Of a DNA stretch of 53,558 nucleotides, positions 35,656-52,349 are shown piece after piece. Each line of letters starts with the position of its first letter. Positions within the stretch are counted from its first letter, which is position 1. The translations under genes were made by a program, and so were the position numbers. The stretch comes from Wenzhouxiangella sp. (GTDB lineage: Bacteria; Pseudomonadota; Gammaproteobacteria; Xanthomonadales; Wenzhouxiangellaceae), in contig SLKT01000072.1 of NCBI GenBank assembly GCA_007134485.1, forward strand, positions 1-53,558, written 5' to 3'. The notes under the pieces were generated by a model that was not told the origin of the DNA, searched no databases, and was given only the letters and a program-made list of their open reading frames with translations.

Positions 35656-35666
35656 CCTCCGAATTC

Positions 35667-35825
35667 AAGGTTTAAGGTTTAAGGAATTCGGGTTCAGATA
35701 CACGCTTTACGGTTTACGATTTACGGGAAAGATCAAGGTACAAGGCGCAAGGAAAACCCGGCAGCCTGTTGCCCCTACCACCGACCACCGACTACAGACC
35801 ACCGTCTCCCGTCTCCCGTCTCCCG
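35667..35825. repeat. Mosaic of tandem heptanucleotide repeats, locus 1
   Basis: Blocks of 7-nt units: AAGGTTT (35667-35684, 2.6 copies, flanked by inverted GAATTC); TTTACGG/TTTACGA three times, one divergent unit, then CAAGGTA, CAAGGCG and CAAGGAA (35706-35754, seven units in one register); and ACCACCG, ACCACCG, ACTACAG, ACCACCG, then TCTCCCG three times (35777-35825, seven units in one register). It fills the gap between the convergent zapE and TetR stops. No coding content. Confidence 0.88.
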
Positions 35826-35826
35826 T

Positions 35827-40319: not shown

Positions 40320-42101
40320 ATGTTTCCGAAAAATCTTTTCCGGCTGGCCGTAGCTGGCCTTGTCGGCCTTTCCGCCCCCATCATATCGGCCGAGCCGGCC
40401 GACCCCGACGAGCATATCGTCGTGACCGCCAGTCGTAGCGAGCAGGCCGTAAGTGACAGCCTGGCCTCGGTCACCCTCATTGATCGCGACCAGATCGAGA
40501 TCAGCCAGGCGCCCGACCTGCTGGAGTTGCTTCGCAAACAAGCCGGCATCGACATGGCTAGAACCGGAGGACCCGGTGGTCAGACCAGCGTGTTTCTGCG
40601 TGGCAGCAACTCCAATCATGTACTGGTCCTGATCGATGGCGTTCGAGTCTCGGCGGCCGGGACCGGCGCCTTTGCCTGGGAATTGCTGGATCCCAACCTG
40701 ATCGAACGTATCGAAATCGTGCGTGGACCTCGAGCCGCGCGCTGGGGCTCGGACGCGATCGGCGGTGTCATACAGATTTTCACTCGCCAGGCCGAGGGTG
40801 TCGGAGTTCGTGCGGCCTACGGGCGTTATCGTGACCGCTCGATCGCCGCCAGCATGGGCACCGGCCAGGCGGGCCTGACGGTCGCCGGCCGCCGGGTCGG
40901 TGGATATTCCTCCCAGAACGAACGCGGTTTCGCTTTTGACCCGGACGACGACGGTTTCGAAAACATCAGCGCGACAAGTAGCGGCAGCACCGAGGTCGGG
41001 CCCGGACACTTGCACTGGAGTGCACGCCTGGCGACTGGTGAAGCCGAGTTTGACCAGGGCGAATCGGACTTTCTCAACTATGCCGGTCGCATGGAGTACC
41101 GCTCGAACGGGCAGGGCCCGTGGCAATGGCTGGCCAGCGCAAGCCTGTATCGTGACCGCCTGGAAACCGAAACGCCTTTCGATGAATCCGAGGTCATCAC
41201 GCGGCGGGTTCAGACTGCTTTTCAGGGACAGACCAGCCTCGATCAGGACAATCGCTGGATGGTCGGCGTCGATGCCTGGCGCGAATCCGGAGTCAGTCGC
41301 AATGCCTGGTCTGAGCAACGCTACAACGTCGGCTTGTGGACCGGATTCGATGGCCGCATCGGTCAACTCGAGCATGAAAGCGCCATCCGCCTGGACCGCG
41401 ATGAGCTGTTCGGCAACGCCGTTTCGGGCAACCTTGCCGCCGGCTGGCCGGTCGCAGAAGACTGGCGACTCATGGCCAGCATTGGCCGGGCCTTTCGAGC
41501 GCCGAACTTCGATCAATTGTTCTCGCCCGGTTTCGATGGCCTGTTCGCCGGCAATCCGGACCTGGACCCGGAAACATCATGGAGCACCGAACTGGGGGTT
41601 CAGTGGCAACCGGACAGCCGGCAACGCGTGACTCTGGCGGCTTTCGAGAACCGCATTGATGACCTGATTGATTTTTCCGGGACCGACTTCGAGGCCATCA
41701 ATATCCAGAAGGCCCGCATTCGCGGCGCCGAACTGGCCTGGGAATACTCCGACAGCGACTGGCGCAGCCGTGCCCAGATCAGCTGGCAGGACAGCACGGA
41801 TCGCGATACCGGCCAGCGACTGCTGCGCCGCGCCCGCGAAAATGCCAGCGTGAGCCTGGACCGACTGTTCGGCCCGAGCTGGATTGGTGGCGAAATCGTT
41901 CATGTCGGCGATCGCGTCGATGTCGGTCAGCAACCCCTGCCCTCCCACACCCTGGTCAACCTGCGCGCCGGCTATGCACTACCTGCCGGATTCCGACTGG
42001 AAGGCCGGGTGGAAAACCTGACTGACCGGGAGTATGAGCAGGTGTTCGGATTCAATACCCATCGTCGTTCGTTGTTTGTTGCGGTGAGTTGGGAGCGGTA
42101 G
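40320..42101 (+). CDS. btuB: TonB-dependent cobalamin receptor BtuB
   Basis: A 593-residue outer-membrane receptor. Signal peptide cleaved near ISA-EP; TonB-box region HIVVTASR; plug domain (QAPDLLELLRKQAGIDM, GSNSNHVLVLIDGVRV, IERIEIVRGPRAARWGSDAIGG); then a beta-barrel ending RRSLFVAVSWER. The cobalamin riboswitch directly upstream supports the vitamin B12 assignment. GAGGAG about 10 nt before ATG 40320 fits this start. No TonB/ExbBD genes are in the window; a BtuCD-like pair is at 46224-47968. Confidence 0.96.
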   Translation: MFPKNLFRLAVAGLVGLSAPIISAEPADPDEHIVVTASRSEQAVSDSLASVTLIDRDQIEISQAPDLLELLRKQAGIDMARTGGPGGQTSVFLRGSNSNHVLVLIDGVRVSAAGTGAFAWELLDPNLIERIEIVRGPRAARWGSDAIGGVIQIFTRQAEGVGVRAAYGRYRDRSIAASMGTGQAGLTVAGRRVGGYSSQNERGFAFDPDDDGFENISATSSGSTEVGPGHLHWSARLATGEAEFDQGESDFLNYAGRMEYRSNGQGPWQWLASASLYRDRLETETPFDESEVITRRVQTAFQGQTSLDQDNRWMVGVDAWRESGVSRNAWSEQRYNVGLWTGFDGRIGQLEHESAIRLDRDELFGNAVSGNLAAGWPVAEDWRLMASIGRAFRAPNFDQLFSPGFDGLFAGNPDLDPETSWSTELGVQWQPDSRQRVTLAAFENRIDDLIDFSGTDFEAINIQKARIRGAELAWEYSDSDWRSRAQISWQDSTDRDTGQRLLRRARENASVSLDRLFGPSWIGGEIVHVGDRVDVGQQPLPSHTLVNLRAGYALPAGFRLEGRVENLTDREYEQVFGFNTHRRSLFVAVSWER

Positions 42102-42117
42102 GGTTCAGGGTTCAGGG
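42101..42117. repeat. Short heptamer repeat at the btuB stop
   Basis: GGGTTCA twice plus GGG, starting on the last base of the btuB TAG. It is not in register with the larger array at 42204. Confidence 0.7.
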
Positions 42118-42129
42118 ATGTGAGGTGGT

Positions 42130-42166
42130 CTGTGCATTAAGTTCCCAAAACTGGAAGAATGCACAG
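42130..42166 (+). terminator. Hairpin after btuB
   Basis: CTGTGCATT pairs with AATGCACAG (9 bp) around a loop containing a further TTCC/GGAA pairing. No T-run follows, so it is a probable 3'-end stabiliser or factor-assisted stop. Confidence 0.5.
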
Positions 42167-42194
42167 TGACTGACCAATACGGCGGAATCTGAAT

Positions 42195-43238
42195 GTGGCG
42201 TCACTGAAACCTGAAACCTGGAACCTGAAACCTTTCCTTTCACCGGAAACCGGAAACCGGAAACCGTCTCTATACATCCTCTTGCTGGCGGCGCTGGTCC
42301 TGGCCGGGTCGGCCTGCCAGAGGGGGGAGCCCGAACATGGGGCCACGTTCGCGGTATTCGGAACACAGGTGACGGTGACGGTCAGGGACGTTGAATCGGA
42401 GTTGGCCGAACAGGCGTTCGGTGAACTCAGTCGGGATTTTCAGCGCATGCATCGCCAGTGGCATCCATGGGCGCCGGGGGCGCTCACCGAGCTGAATGAA
42501 GCCCTGCCGTCAGGCGATTGGTTGGAAGCGACGCCTGAGCTGATCGAGTTGATAAAGGCCGCCCGGGCCATGGAAGTCCGTTCGGGCGGCCGGTTCAATG
42601 CCGCCATGGGCGGGTTGATTGGTTTGTGGGGCTTTCATACTTCGGATTACCCGATCACCGACCCGCCACCCGACTCGGAACAGATTCAAACACTGCTCGA
42701 CAGAAAGCCTTCCATGCAGGATATCGAGGTCAGGGATGAGCAGGTGCGCTCGACCAATCCGGCCGTGCAACTGGATTTCAGCGGCATCGCCAAGGGTCTG
42801 GCCGCACGCCTGGCCTGCCAACGTCTGGCCGGATTCGACATCGAAGTGGCCATGATCGACCTCGGCGGCGATGTCATGGTCTGTGGCTCCGGTCAGAACC
42901 CCTGGCGGGTGGCGATTGCCGATCAGAACGACGCGATCATCGAAATCATCGAGTTGGACCAGTCCATGGCGGTGTTCAGCTCCGGCATCAGCCAGCGCTA
43001 CCGGGAATTCGATGGTAAACGCCATGCCCACATCCTCGACCCGACCAGCGGGCAACCGGTCGATGCAATCTTCCAGGTCACCGTCATCGACCCCGACCCG
43101 ATCCTGGCCGATGCCGCAGCCACCGCCCTGGTGGTTGCCGGCCCCGATCACTGGCAGTATGTGGCCACCGATATGGGCGTGAAGCGAGTCGTGATCGTTG
43201 ATGCAGAGGGATTGGTATTTCGAAGTATCAACGATTGA
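42195..43238 (+). CDS. apbE: FAD:protein FMN transferase, ApbE family lipoprotein
   Basis: ApbE attaches FMN to target flavoproteins (such as NqrC/RnfG subunits) in the periplasm. Seen: lipobox LAGSAC at about residue 40, TFAVFGTQVTVTV, GGRFNAAMGGL, LDFSGIAKGLAA, IDLGGDV and HAHILDPTSGQPV with the metal-site residues. The start is unclear. GTG 42195 gives a positively charged N-terminus encoded by the heptamer array; without it, no good start precedes the hydrophobic signal core except a TTG at 42282. Its target is not in the window. It ends 29 nt before the convergent DUF6164 gene stop. Confidence 0.9.
   Translation: MASLKPETWNLKPFLSPETGNRKPSLYILLLAALVLAGSACQRGEPEHGATFAVFGTQVTVTVRDVESELAEQAFGELSRDFQRMHRQWHPWAPGALTELNEALPSGDWLEATPELIELIKAARAMEVRSGGRFNAAMGGLIGLWGFHTSDYPITDPPPDSEQIQTLLDRKPSMQDIEVRDEQVRSTNPAVQLDFSGIAKGLAARLACQRLAGFDIEVAMIDLGGDVMVCGSGQNPWRVAIADQNDAIIEIIELDQSMAVFSSGISQRYREFDGKRHAHILDPTSGQPVDAIFQVTVIDPDPILADAAATALVVAGPDHWQYVATDMGVKRVVIVDAEGLVFRSIND
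42204..42266. repeat. Mosaic of tandem heptanucleotide repeats, locus 2
   Basis: Nine consecutive 7-nt units in one register: CTGAAAC, CTGAAAC, CTGGAAC, CTGAAAC, two transition units (CTTTCCT, TTCACCG), then GAAACCG three times. It lies over the 5' end of the apbE frame, where three units equal seven codons (LKPETWN, LKPFLSP, ETGNRKP). Confidence 0.9.
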
Positions 43239-43267
43239 TATTGAACGCTGTGCCGGTCTGCGCAGCT

Positions 43268-46223: not shown

Positions 46224-47189
46224 ATGTCCCTGGTTTTTCGGCAATCCCTGATCTGGTTCGGGCTGGTTCTGGCCATTCCGGCCAGCCTGTTGCTGGCATC
46301 GAGCTGGGGCAGCGGCGGCTGGCTATGGCCCTGGGAAGCCGATGGGGCCATGCAGAGAATCATCGCCGAGCTGCGCTGGCCGAGAGCCATAGCCGCCATG
46401 ATTACCGGCAGCCTGCTGGCTGTGGCAGGGTGCCTGATGCAGGTACTGCTTCGCAACCCGCTGGCCGACCCCTACGTGCTGGGCCTGTCCGGCGGTGCGG
46501 CGGCCTTTGCCCTGGCGGGCATGATGTTGGGACTGGCCTGGGTGCCCATCCCCGTACTGGCATTCCTGGGCGCCTTGCTGACCATGGTGGTGGTGTTTGT
46601 TCTGGCCCGCGGCAAGGGCCCGTGGAGCACCACCCGGGTGTTGCTGACCGGCGTGGTTGTGGCGGCCGGCTGGGGCGCACTGATTTCGCTGATGCTGGCC
46701 ACCGGACCGGATGCCAGCCTGCGCAGCATGCTCTACTGGTTGATGGGGGACATGAGTTACGCCCACTTGTCAGCCTGGTGGTTGGTGCCACTGGTCATCG
46801 GGCTGGGGTTGTTGTGGCTGCGCTCGCGCAGTCTGAACGTCATGGCCGGTGGCCAGTTGCAGGCCGCACTTCTGGGCGAGAACACCCGCAGTCGCTTCTG
46901 GGAAATCTATCTGATCGCCTCGGTATTGACCGGCCTGGCGGTGTCGATTGCCGGTGCAATCGGCTTTGTCGGGCTGATCGTGCCGCACTTGATGCGCCTG
47001 ATCGTGGGCGCTGACCACCGTCGCCTGCTACCGGCCGCGGCCATCTTTGGTGGCGTGTTTCTGGTTGTCGCCGATACCTTCGCCCGGACCTTGTTGAGTC
47101 CGCGCCAGTTGCCGGTCGGCGTGCTCACCGCATTGATCGGCGTGCCATTGTTTCTGCTGCTGCTTCACCGCGCGGTCCGGATTCGCTGA
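46224..47189 (+). CDS. BtuC/FecCD-type ABC transporter permease
   Basis: A 321-residue permease with about ten hydrophobic helices. The family segments LRWPRAIAAMITGSLLAVAG, NPLADPYVLGLSGGAA and GAIGFVGLIVPHLMRLIVG (coupling helix to the ATPase) are present. With the ATPase it forms a BtuCD-like importer for cobalamin or a siderophore; btuB and the B12 riboswitch 4 kb away favour cobalamin, which is an inference. ATG 46224 is preferred to TTG 46215. It overlaps the ATPase start by 1 nt. Confidence 0.93.
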   Translation: MSLVFRQSLIWFGLVLAIPASLLLASSWGSGGWLWPWEADGAMQRIIAELRWPRAIAAMITGSLLAVAGCLMQVLLRNPLADPYVLGLSGGAAAFALAGMMLGLAWVPIPVLAFLGALLTMVVVFVLARGKGPWSTTRVLLTGVVVAAGWGALISLMLATGPDASLRSMLYWLMGDMSYAHLSAWWLVPLVIGLGLLWLRSRSLNVMAGGQLQAALLGENTRSRFWEIYLIASVLTGLAVSIAGAIGFVGLIVPHLMRLIVGADHRRLLPAAAIFGGVFLVVADTFARTLLSPRQLPVGVLTALIGVPLFLLLLHRAVRIR

Positions 47190-47968
47190 TGAGCAGTCCG
47201 ATTCTTTCAGTCAGCCAGCTCGATGTGCACATTGGCCCGGTTGTCGTCACGGACCAACTCGACCTCGACATCGACACCGGGCAGTTCTGGGGATTGCTTG
47301 GACCCAACGGAGTGGGCAAGACCACCTTGCTGAAAACCCTGGCCGGCGTGCATCCGGCCGATCGCGGTGAAATCCGGCTGGATGGCCAACCCATGGACCG
47401 CCTGACGCGCAGACAAATCGCCCGGCGACTGGGCATGCTGTCTCAGCACACCGATTACGCTTTTGACGCCACTTGCGAACAGACCGCGCTGGTCGGACGT
47501 CATCCGCACCTGAAAGCCTGGTCGCGCGAAACTCGCGCTGATCGCGCCCTGGCCCGCCGGGCGCTGGCTGACCTGGGACTGTCGGATCTGGCCGAGCGAA
47601 GCTGCATGAGCCTGTCCGGGGGCGAATCTCGTCGCCTGGCCCTGGCCACGGTGCTGGTCCAGGATCCGGCCCTGTTGCTGCTTGATGAGCCCACCAATCA
47701 TCTCGACCCGGCCAACCAGGTCACCATTCTCGATGTGCTCGTCCACAGGGTCAGAAACCAGTCCCGAGCCGCCATCGCCGCCCTGCACGAGGTCAATCTG
47801 GCCACTTGCTATTGCACCCATGTCGTCATGCTGATGGGCAATGGCCAGTGGCTGGCCGGCCCTACGTCGGAATTACTGAATACCGAAAACCTCAGCAAAC
47901 TATACGGCTGCCGCATCCGCCTGGTCGACGACGGCCGCCAACGCGTGTTCGCCGTGGCGGGACAGTAG
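47189..47968 (+). CDS. ABC transporter ATP-binding protein (BtuD/FecE-type)
   Basis: A 259-residue ATPase with Walker A GPNGVGKTT, Q-loop LSQHTDYAF, signature LSGGESRR, Walker B LLLLDEPTNHLD and His switch ALHEVN. It pairs with the permease by a 1-nt stop/start overlap. No substrate-binding protein (BtuF) gene is in the window. The 7-nt repeat array begins 6 nt after its stop. Confidence 0.95.
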   Translation: MSSPILSVSQLDVHIGPVVVTDQLDLDIDTGQFWGLLGPNGVGKTTLLKTLAGVHPADRGEIRLDGQPMDRLTRRQIARRLGMLSQHTDYAFDATCEQTALVGRHPHLKAWSRETRADRALARRALADLGLSDLAERSCMSLSGGESRRLALATVLVQDPALLLLDEPTNHLDPANQVTILDVLVHRVRNQSRAAIAALHEVNLATCYCTHVVMLMGNGQWLAGPTSELLNTENLSKLYGCRIRLVDDGRQRVFAVAGQ

Positions 47969-47974
47969 TGGAGC

Positions 47975-48114
47975 GGTAAAAGGTGAAAGGTGAAAGAGAG
48001 GATGGGGAGACGGGAGACGGGAGACGGGAAAAGCTTTCACCGTTCACCACCCCCTTTGGCTCGTTGCCCTTTTTTCTTTTCAGCCCTTTTACCTTTCACC
48101 TTTCACCTTTCACC
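47975..48114. repeat. Mosaic of tandem heptanucleotide repeats, locus 3
   Basis: Twenty 7-nt units in one unbroken register (140 nt). GGTAAAA, GGTGAAA twice, transition units, ACGGGAG twice and ACGGGAA, AAGCTTT, CACCGTT, CACCACC, degenerate units, then TTTTACC and TTTCACC three times. The left GGTGAAA block is complementary to the right TTTCACC block, so the array can fold back. It fills the gap between the ABC ATPase and the ATP-grasp gene. Confidence 0.92.
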
Positions 48115-48127
48115 TATACTCTAAGCC

Positions 48128-49570
48128 ATGGATCTCAACAACTACTCCAGCAACGACTTCCATGACGAGCTGATCGGGCCCGGCGGTCGGCCGCGGGCTG
48201 CGGCCCGGGCCATCTGGAAGTACCTCAAGGGCCTGGATTCCGAAGAAGTGGCTGAGCGCAAGGCGGCTTGCGAGCTGGCCGCCATGGTCGCCGGCATCAC
48301 CTTCCGGGTCTATTTTGAGGACACCGGCATTGATCGAGCCATGCCGTTCGACCTGATTCCGCGGGTCATTTCGGCCAGTGAATGGCAGGAGGTCGAGCGC
48401 GGGCTGAAGCAACGGGTCCAGGCGCTCAACCTGTTCATTGATGACCTCTACAACGACCAGCGCATCATTGCCGATGGCGTATTTCCGGCCGAAATGCTGG
48501 AAGGCTCGGAGAACTTCCGTGAACAATGCCGTGGCTTTTCGCCGCCGCTGGGCATCTGGGCGCATATCTGCGGCTCGGACATCGTGCGCGATGGTGATGG
48601 CACGCTGTACGTACTCGAGGACAACCTGCGCATTCCCTCCGGCGTGTCCTACATGCTTGAAAACCGCCAGGTCATGAAACGGGTCTTTCCCGAGTTGTTC
48701 GAGGATTCCGGCATTCAGCCGATCGATGAATATCCCTCGCAACTCTACGACACCCTGGCCTCGCTGTCGCCGAGACCGGCCGATTACCCGACCGTGGTGG
48801 TGCTGACGCCGGGCATGTACAACTCTGCCTACTTCGAACACGCCTACCTGGCCCAGCAGATGGGCGTGGAGCTGGTCGAGGGCCGCGACCTTGTCGTCAA
48901 CGAAAATGATGAAGTCATGATGCGCACCATCGCTGGCCTGGAACCGGTCGATGTCATCTACCGGCGCATTGACGATGCCTTTATCGATCCCGAGGTCTTT
49001 CGTCCCGACTCAATGCTTGGCGTGCCAGGGCTGATGCGTGCCTGGCGGTCCGGCAAGGTGGCCCTGGCCAATGCGCCGGGGGCCGGGGTGGCCGATGACA
49101 AGGTGGTGTATGCCTGGTTGCCGGAAATCATTCGTTACTACCTCGACGAAGACCCGCTGATCGCCAACGTCCCGACCTGGAAATGCTCCGAGCCGGAAGA
49201 CCTCAAGTATGTGCTGGCGAATATCGGGGAGCTGGTCATCAAGCCGGCCAATGAATCGGGTGGCTACGGCATGCTGATCGGACCGCGCTCGACCAAAAAG
49301 GAACAACGTGAGTTCGCCCGTCTGATCAAGGCCGACCCGCGCAATTACATCGCCCAGCCGACCCTGGCGCTGTCGACCTGCCCGACCTTCATCCAGGGCC
49401 GGGTGTCACCCCGCCATGTCGACCTGCGACCGTTCATATTGTCTGGCCAGCAGACCTATGTCACCAATGGCGGTCTGACCCGGGTGGCGCTGAAAGCCGG
49501 CTCACTGGTGGTCAACTCCTCCCAGGGCGGCGGCAGCAAGGACACCTGGATCGTCGAGACGGGGAACTGA
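48128..49570 (+). CDS. Circularly permuted ATP-grasp protein
   Basis: A 480-residue member of the circularly permuted ATP-grasp family (COG2308 type). It has [53 protein letters not shown] and [17 protein letters not shown] (ATP-binding loop). It is a classic partner of the Anbu proteasome-like peptidase and alpha-E proteins; together they are thought to make or process a peptide-like product. Followed 3 nt later by the alpha-E gene. Confidence 0.94.
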
Positions 49571-51617: not shown

Positions 51618-52349
51618 CTACTCCCAATCGAAGCGCGGCAGCTCCAGGAACAGGCGCTTGAGGCCTTCGGACCAGGCTCCACTCAGGGACTTCAGGTACG
51701 GATCATCCTCGGCGAAACGACAGCGGCGCGAAACGGCCAGGCGATCGGCCGGGTAGAACAGCAATTCGATCGGCGGCCCGACGCTCAGATTCGAACGCAT
51801 CGAGGCATCCATTGAAATCATGGCACAGCGACCGGCACGCTCCATGCTGATCGAGGGGTCGATGATGCGATCGAGGATCGGCTTGCCGTACTTGGTCTCG
51901 CCGATCTGCAGAAAGGGTTTTTCAACAGAGGCGGCAATGTAGTTGCCCTGTGGGTAGATCAGGTAGGCCTCGTGCTCCTGACCCTGGATCTGGCCGCCAA
52001 GAATAAATGATGCTTCCATCAATCCAGTCTGCTGTTCGGGCTGGCCTGAAAAATCGCTCTGGATCTGGGCGCTGATCTCGCCGACGTAGCGGGCGATTTC
52101 ATCGAGATGAGCCAGCGCATTGATGCTGACATCGATATCCGGATTGGCCAGGTCTCGTTCGAGACGCTTGGTGACCGCCTGGGTGGTGGCCAGATTGCCT
52201 GCCGAGAGCAAGACCACCACACGGTCCGCAGCGGTATCGAACAAGTGCATCTTGGAATAGATGCTGACATCGTCGACCCCGGCATTGGTGCGTGAGTCCG
52301 AGGCGAACACCAACCCGGCGTCGAGTCGTATGGCGACACAGTAGGTCAT
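51618..52349 (-). CDS. Proteasome-type peptidase Anbu (HslV-like)
   Basis: A 243-residue Anbu protein starting MTYCVAIRLDAG, where Thr2 would be the N-terminal nucleophile after Met removal. FASDSRTNAGVDD and LLSAGNLATTQAVTKRL match the proteasome-like fold. Anbu is an ancestral-type, ring-forming relative of HslV. It is convergent with the ATP-grasp/alpha-E/metallopeptidase operon, with 45 nt between the stops. Target unknown. Confidence 0.94.
   Translation of the reverse strand: MTYCVAIRLDAGLVFASDSRTNAGVDDVSIYSKMHLFDTAADRVVVLLSAGNLATTQAVTKRLERDLANPDIDVSINALAHLDEIARYVGEISAQIQSDFSGQPEQQTGLMEASFILGGQIQGQEHEAYLIYPQGNYIAASVEKPFLQIGETKYGKPILDRIIDPSISMERAGRCAMISMDASMRSNLSVGPPIELLFYPADRLAVSRRCRFAEDDPYLKSLSGAWSEGLKRLFLELPRFDWE

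Follow-up and report, generated by a model that had tools for sequence, protein, structure and literature searches.

Between the genes for an ABC transporter ATPase and a circularly permuted ATP-grasp protein, at positions 47975-48114 of the window (the whole stretch of 53,558 nt that was analysed), lies a 140-nt array of heptamers, and the question raised by this locus is how units of different sequence come to share one step of seven nucleotides. An earlier note had described the array as twenty heptamers in strict register. Its sequence and coordinates were verified, and the period itself is real, since a lag-7 identity of 0.62 across the 140 nt compares with 0.25 in shuffled sequence, and none of 2,000 shuffles reached it. 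The note was also correct on the complementarity of the outer blocks, GGTGAAA and TTTCACC, for which a long hairpin fold is predicted (z -4.4). However, about 11 of the 20 units are clear: there are three clear blocks (GGTRAAA x3, GGGAGAC x3.6 and TTTYACC x4, the last with a clear period over the four units at 48087-48114) around a centre whose period is weak (Table 1). Read from its sequence, the block at 48003-48030 also matches a G3N4 quadruplex-type motif. An Rfam search gave matches only far below the gathering scores.

The strict register across differing units does not survive. At six junctions between GGTGAAA and ACGGRAG, in stretches of three genomes, the offset modulo 7 was 6 in three cases and 0, 5 and 3 in one case each, and since the rotation of a unit is free, a register between blocks carries little meaning. 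Strict register was thus rejected as a rule. The stronger claim, that register must be kept across units, falls with it, because junction offsets vary, 1-nt indels occur and a shared 7-nt step can be inherited by copying; no protein reading 7-nt steps is required by the findings here.

As to its position, the array does lie next to an ABC ATPase gene, as the note had said, but the "Anbu-type operon" on its other side is not one transcription unit, since the Anbu-like gene is on the strand opposite to the ATP-grasp, Alpha-E and Peptidase_Mx genes. This proteasome-like gene (51618-52349, minus strand) scores 21.3 bits with Pfam Proteasome, just below the cut-off of 22.4. The ATP-grasp protein is 98% identical to that of the nearest relative found, the sister species L009 (Gammaproteobacteria bacterium CSSed11_52R1).

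Table 1. Positions of the array, its parts, its neighbouring genes and two further cassettes in the window
Feature	Position	Strand	Remarks
Second cassette	35664-35826	.	GGTTTAA, GGAATTC, GGGTTCA, GGTTTAC, GGGAAA, GGNNCAA, core AAGGAAAACC, then ACCACCG, CCGTCTC; flanked by AFG1-ATPase and TetR genes
Third cassette	42101-42266	.	GGGTTCA left, CTGAAAC/ACCGGAA right; before an ApbE gene
FecCD permease gene	46224-47189		Pfam FecCD, 277 bits; precedes the ABC ATPase gene
ABC transporter ATPase gene	47189-47968	+	Pfam ABC_tran, 116 bits, own gene call; stop codon 6 nt left of the array
Outer left half, GGTAAAA GGTGAAA GGTGAAA	47975-47995	+	three units, G-rich on the plus strand, docked at the stop codon
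Second left block, GGGAGAC/ACGGGAG	48003-48030	+	about 3.6 units, clear period 7
Centre or spacer	48031-48086	.	weak period 7; lag-7 identity 0.45 vs 0.31, reached by 46 of 2,000 shuffles
Right half, TTTTACC TTTCACC x3	48085-48115	-	GGTGAAA on the minus strand, C-rich on the plus strand; 12 nt before the ATG
Circularly permuted ATP-grasp gene	48128-49570	+	right of the array; Pfam CP_ATPgrasp_2, 568 bits

Heptamer cassettes elsewhere

Period-7 phasing across the genome was borne out in the part sampled. The genome of the window (G000; 3.35 Mb, 206 contigs) was scanned in 21 stretches of together 286 kb, namely the window and 20 picked blind, and gave 35 lag-7 segments, as compared with 0-4 apiece for the remaining lags between 4 and 15, lag 14 excepted, and none in one resampled control. 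The sister species G014 gave 24 lag-7 segments over 260 kb (L126 and 3 of 20 stretches had been picked for matches), and G019, a single-contig genome, gave 32 in 400 kb, evenly spaced, with 0-5 for the other lags except 14 in both. Besides two sets of stretches picked blind, one set was chosen for GGTGAAA pairs; three sets of 20 were chosen in part for matches, either to GGTGAAA (3 of 20) or to GACGGRA (13 of 20 in one set and 9 of 20 in the other, where 6 were continuations of contigs in the GGTGAAA-pair set). The array at 47975-48114 is thus not a lone oddity but belongs to a family of heptamer cassettes dispersed over intergenic sites. Among halves that could be placed, 84 of 100 in G000, 55 of 66 in G014 and 27 of 29 in G019 are intergenic (those at stretch edges, 41 and 6, were left out). 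Of 212 intergenic regions measuring 80-600 nt, 43 hold arrays, some of the stretches having been picked because they contain them.

The period is common to species while the units differ, as is seen from the unequal spread of the unit patterns. GGTGAAAGGTGAAA occurs 59 times in G000. Of 299 genomes taken from the order, 11 contain GGTGAAA x3, including 8 of the genus (Wenzhouxiangella); GGKTTMN x3 was found in 26 of 30 genus genomes; and GACGGRA x3 in 8 of 30, with 4 control matches in G003. Control patterns gave no match for GGTGAAAGGTGAAA (reversed), GGTGAAA x3, GGKTTMN x3 and the exact form of the core described below, 2 matches in G060, and 25, 164 and 45 in cyanobacteria. The GGKTTMN pattern is missing from four genus genomes, all of them small (1.3-2.1 Mb, with a completeness of 63-98%), and a comparison of gene content was therefore judged to be confounded.

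Contig ends fall inside heptamer arrays in 16 of 23 cases in array-selected stretches and in 6 of 37 in the blind set. The longest arrays are therefore probably truncated by assembly, and the blind-set figure means that arrays help to explain assembly breaks.

Two further observations concern single sites and distant genomes. The cassette at 42101-42266 and the following ApbE gene (window 42095-43267) are absent in L009, which has about 10 nt instead (L009 529-538), and the N-terminus predicted for ApbE is encoded across the right half of that array. Two cyanobacterial genomes, G300 and G299 (behind L063 and L058), are dense in RGGKAAY heptamers, with 893 and 386 pattern matches and 164 and 25 in the reversed control.

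Polarity and docking at gene edges

When two neighbouring halves of opposite composition are separated by under 200 nt, the left one is the G-rich one, in 64 of 64 pairs (38 of 38 in G000, 19 of 19 in G014 and 7 of 7 in G019), which are not all independent since the G000 and G014 sites are partly orthologous. The count leaves out segments of unclear orientation, which made up 3 of 144 in G000 and 3 of the 75 in G014 (unrecorded for G019). The polarity is the same in all four gene-orientation classes, tandem, convergent and divergent, 9 of the 64 pairs having no assigned gene pair. A composition artefact was rejected as its source, because the left side is the more G-skewed one in 37 of 43 intergenic regions with arrays and in 89 of 169 without. 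Additional pairs closer than 250 nt, in G003, G018, G035 and the cyanobacterial G300, ran from G to C in 11 of 11 cases among the matches listed, with coordinates copied by hand and long runs thinned, and 3 of 3 pairs in fetched pieces did the same. In the cyanobacterial pieces L058, L246 and L247 the units differ and the polarity is again G to C where paired. L248 has a C-rich array some 600 nt to the left of a G-rich one, and the two were excluded as a pair.

The arrays are also docked at gene edges. The median distance from the outer end of an array is 4 nt (G000), 6 nt (G014) and 6 nt (G019) to a stop codon, and 51, 32 and 30 nt to a start codon, as computed from gene calls of our own coding-score script, not a standard gene finder, with distances floored at 0. 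For one-sided arrays, the rule that the G-rich strand points away from the nearer gene is followed in 51 of 65 cases and broken in 14.

The two arms of a pair belong to the same family in 15 of 38 cases in G000 (shuffle mean 8.3, p 0.006), 8 of 19 in G014 (5.7, p 0.09) and 6 of 7 in G019 (2.0, p 0.005, counting one other/other pair among the six), while 23 of the 38 G000 pairs have arms of differing families. Hairpin formation or complementarity was accordingly rejected as the driver, since same-family arms are in excess but not general.

Block order and turnover between sister species

Where several families follow each other, they do so in a preferred order. The 33 multi-family runs of G000 and G014, scored with eight families on the G strand, yield 37 ordered pairs, and three of these contradict the best order, which reads from edge to centre GGTDAAA, GACGGRA, GGRRTCA, GWRGTCR, GGKTTMC, GGKTTCA, GGNNCAA, GGTTTAA/GGAATTC; none of 500 shuffles had as few violations, with the reservation that families and order were defined after inspection of the data and that the two genomes share some sites. 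With the order learnt on G000, core included, 22 of 24 G014 pairs conform. GGTDAAA precedes another family in 8 ordered pairs and follows in none, and one further run carries it at both ends. A family flanking another on both sides of a run (AGHA in L124, GHFG in L174) contributed no ordered pair. Since both strands contribute (GGTDAAA before GACGGRA, 4 on plus and 1 on minus; GGKTTMC before GGNNCAA, 4 and 5; GACGGRA before GWRGTCR, 0 and 3), the order reads inward from either gene edge.

Near the centre, a semi-conserved core recurs, GGGAAA-(GGNNCAA)n-GGAAAACC, found in the window at 35725-35774. For CAAGGAAAACC and its variants, 16 of 58 pattern matches stand in heptamer context as judged by eye (9 in G000, 7 in G014), and one exact form of the core is present at 8 sites in 4 of 30 genus genomes. 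When 26 G000 centres were compared, most shared nothing past one core, and no donor-recipient pair was caught among them. As only this one core recurs, a general mobile element with a common centre was rejected.

Both flanks could be searched for 64 G000 and 41 G014 arrays, and 12 of each had a collinear partner in the compared stretches, giving 13 distinct sites with flank identities of 79-96%. Six sites keep their array with substitutions, single units, 1-nt indels or an altered centre (L118, L195, L231, L232, L236_12311 and L236_14485), six are rewritten in place and one is empty. The replacement in place was seen in this comparison. With gene flanks intact, a one-sided GGTGAAA array in G000 stands against a two-sided GACGGRA array in G014 (L107/L225), both arms change from GGTGAAA to GACGGRA (L108/L223), and both change from GGTTTCC/GGTTTAC to GGTTTCA/GGGTTCA (L236_13115/L166). 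L229/L175 has GACGGRA in G000 and mainly GGTGAAA in G014, and L241/L174 retains the gene-proximal units with the interior replaced.

The sixth rewritten site is the array at 47975-48114 itself. L009 keeps the units of its outer left half with one substitution, while the centre and the surrounding blocks align better as the reverse complement, the whole scoring 170 in that orientation versus 135.5 directly; 53 other arrays reach at most 152 as reverse complements, a rough null since lengths differ. From this alignment, the array has probably been inverted relative to L009.

At the remaining site (L220/L125), there is an array in G014 and an empty site in G000, where no clear target duplication was seen. 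As 12 of the 13 sites are occupied in both species, content turns over faster than position. The earlier note took slippage of a single unit to be insufficient and offered recombination as one explanation; recombination is indeed likely, since at fixed sites cassettes have given way to others and one has apparently been turned round. Its expectation of length changes in multiples of 7 stands for other pairs, which differ by whole units, but not for L236_14485 versus L166, where 1-nt insertions inside the array were seen by eye; the note had itself named such changes as refuting its reading.

Heptamer repeats are known from several bacterial phyla. The STRR repeats of heterocystous cyanobacteria, reportedly described by Mazel et al. 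in 1990 as genus-specific tandem heptamers, resemble the present arrays by description. BOX, REP and MITE-type repeats are dispersed, intergenic and modular with an inverted-repeat layout; unlike them, the arrays here show no common consensus or ends except for one core, and heptamer expansion is their main content.

A closer likeness is found in the GGGNATC heptamers of Xanthomonas and Nostoc, for which the portions of Rehm 2015 (PMC4692102) considered here report convergent pairs (70 and 75 cases), repeats closest to the 5′ ORF whichever way it points, and, for 83% of repeats, an unchanged gene context with varying length in a sister species. Tandem intergenic heptamers, convergent pairs, ORF proximity on the 5′ side of the G strand and arrays that vary between sister species are common to both systems, and hence the polarity and the docking are not new. 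The four-tract GGGNATC quadruplex unit was not found here: GGGAATC x3 is absent from G000 and GGGNATC x2 from the G000 and G014 stretches. In contrast to the GGGNATC repeats as described in those portions, at least eight unit families exist here instead of one, several without GGG, and the order of the blocks is conserved, with swaps in place and one probable inversion. The TAACTGA direct repeats of Beggiatoaceae, Cyanobacteria and Bacteroidetes, according to the sections of MacGregor 2015 (PMC4679880) drawn upon, likewise form intergenic heptamer arrays with mostly 7-nt indels between strains and a patchy spread, but have one G per unit and, in the Beggiatoa genome, are for the most part one-sided and placed ahead of start codons; no TAACTGA x2 occurs in the 781 kb of G000 or the 538 kb of G014 that were searched.

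In the excerpts of the literature searched, we found no account of a multi-family block order or of replacement and inversion in place, and the papers brought up for Wenzhouxiangella with repeats do not appear, judged by titles and abstract openings, to treat these arrays; PMC7015867 makes no mention of hepta, 7 nt or 7-mer. Mechanism and role are left open in the parts of PMC4692102 and PMC4679880 used here. Polarity, docking, order and replacement shift the question from slippage by 7 to the geometry of DNA ends and exchange between intergenic sites.

Proposed cassette exchange and competing explanations

Taken together, these features suggest a dispersed cassette family that is exchanged among intergenic sites by homology-directed copying, with unit-wise slippage, a reading to which we give a probability of roughly 45%. 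A two-sided cassette consists of G-rich heptamers, a centre and C-rich heptamers, such that the sequence running 3′ towards the centre is G-rich on both strands. A broken 3′ G-rich end could then pair with another cassette, copy through its centre and re-anneal to the opposite side, while unit number would be gained or lost by 7-nt slippage. We infer this exchange, including the broken-end route, from its presumed products. Shared units, order, core, paired swaps, inversion and the common step of 7 would all follow from copying between cassettes: the step would be inherited, so that new unit types could arise by substitution with the period unchanged, and exchange in either orientation keeps the polarity, since an inverted G-to-C cassette is again G to C.

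Cassette exchange is supported by the polarity of all 64 pairs, as compared with unskewed array-free regions, the family changes in both arms at L108/L223 and L236_13115/L166, the step from one- to two-sided at L107/L225, the replaced interior at L241/L174 and the better reverse-complement alignment of the reported array, and it agrees with the recurring core, the block order and the varying junction offsets. It also agrees with gene content, as the heptamer pattern is found in 26 of 30 genus genomes versus 9 of 30 for reverse transcriptase (RVT_1) and 0 of 30 for Ku, which argues against a telomerase-like or Ku-based route. E. coli-type RecB exceeds the cut-off in 8 of 30 genomes, with weaker matches in the remaining 22, and this makes a simple Chi reading less likely. 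Against cassette exchange, most centres share only one core and no donor-recipient pair was seen, the changes at 6 of the 13 sites are explicable by slippage and mutation, the L236_13115 change could be one substitution spread through all left-arm units, 14 of 65 one-sided arrays break the edge rule, and a G-to-C polarity in unrelated phyla does not follow from copying alone.

One competing explanation is that of ordinary heptanucleotide repeats, evolving site by site through slippage and point mutation, with a unit length of 7 favoured because loops of 7 nt escape mismatch repair. Such repeats fit the single-unit sister differences at L118 and L231, long homogeneous runs (for example L107 4943-5029) and 7 as the sole common unit length in the scan; the idea that 7 suits the contact size of a polymerase is cited in the consulted part of Rehm 2015 (PMC4692102). 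However, they do not yield the uniform polarity, the block order, the change of family in both arms, the inversion or the recurring core, and we regard them as an unlikely full explanation.

The geometry of the cassette is that of a telomere fusion, and the same polarity in a cyanobacterium and, from what the relevant portion of Rehm 2015 (PMC4692102) gives, in Xanthomonas hints at something about DNA ends. That the arrays form a large interacting, polarity-locked set acting like interstitial telomere-fusion DNA, with G-rich 3′ ends facing a central break, old outer and new inner layers, and end-directed copying in a fixed layer order, is an improbable extension, about on a par with plain slippage.

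A function at gene ends, be it as a two-way transcription insulator or terminator, in mRNA 3′ protection, in G-quadruplex or i-motif control (discussed in the portions of Rehm 2015, PMC4692102, at hand) or in binding a cold-shock-type protein, one per heptamer (likewise in those of MacGregor 2015, PMC4679880), is somewhat less probable still. The docking at stop codons, the share of intergenic regions occupied and the strong hairpin at 47975-48114 favour it, as does a terminator-like palindrome seen by eye between the G-rich and C-rich arms of L249 5559-5652 (G080, same order). Yet the polarity does not depend on whether the genes are convergent, divergent or tandem, the quadruplex motif (G3 x4) occurs in only 31 of 144 G000 and 9 of 75 G014 arrays, arms are often of differing families, and nine relatives (L010, L091-L098) carry the ATP-grasp gene but, in the DNA compared around it, no lag-7 segment. 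The sequence upstream of that gene also differs in L010, L011 and L012.

More doubtful is the healing of broken ends, in which heptamers would be added at the G-rich 3′ ends of intergenic double-strand breaks and the ends rejoined, the centre being the old break. The head-to-head fusion geometry on both strands speaks for it, together with the frequent arms of differing families and the distances to genes (4-6 nt for stop codons, 30-51 nt for start codons), which look as though a spacer had been worn away right up to the gene. Against it stand the lack of Ku matches in 30 genomes and the RVT_1 search, which gave no match in the array-rich G000, G003, G013 and G023 or in the single-contig G059, and we know of no bacterial enzyme that would supply a template for heptamer addition.

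A transposing palindromic element of MITE or REP type, with heptamers as terminal inverted repeats and insertion near stop codons, is the least probable, for although it fits the inverted-repeat layout, the shared core and order and the L220/L125 site filled in one species, no common ends or consensus were seen except the core, both species have an array at 12 of 13 sites and the sole empty one shows no clear target duplication. As a minor observation, G019:C1:3792391-3820990 carries nine RVT_1 matches within 29 kb, four of them with equal score.
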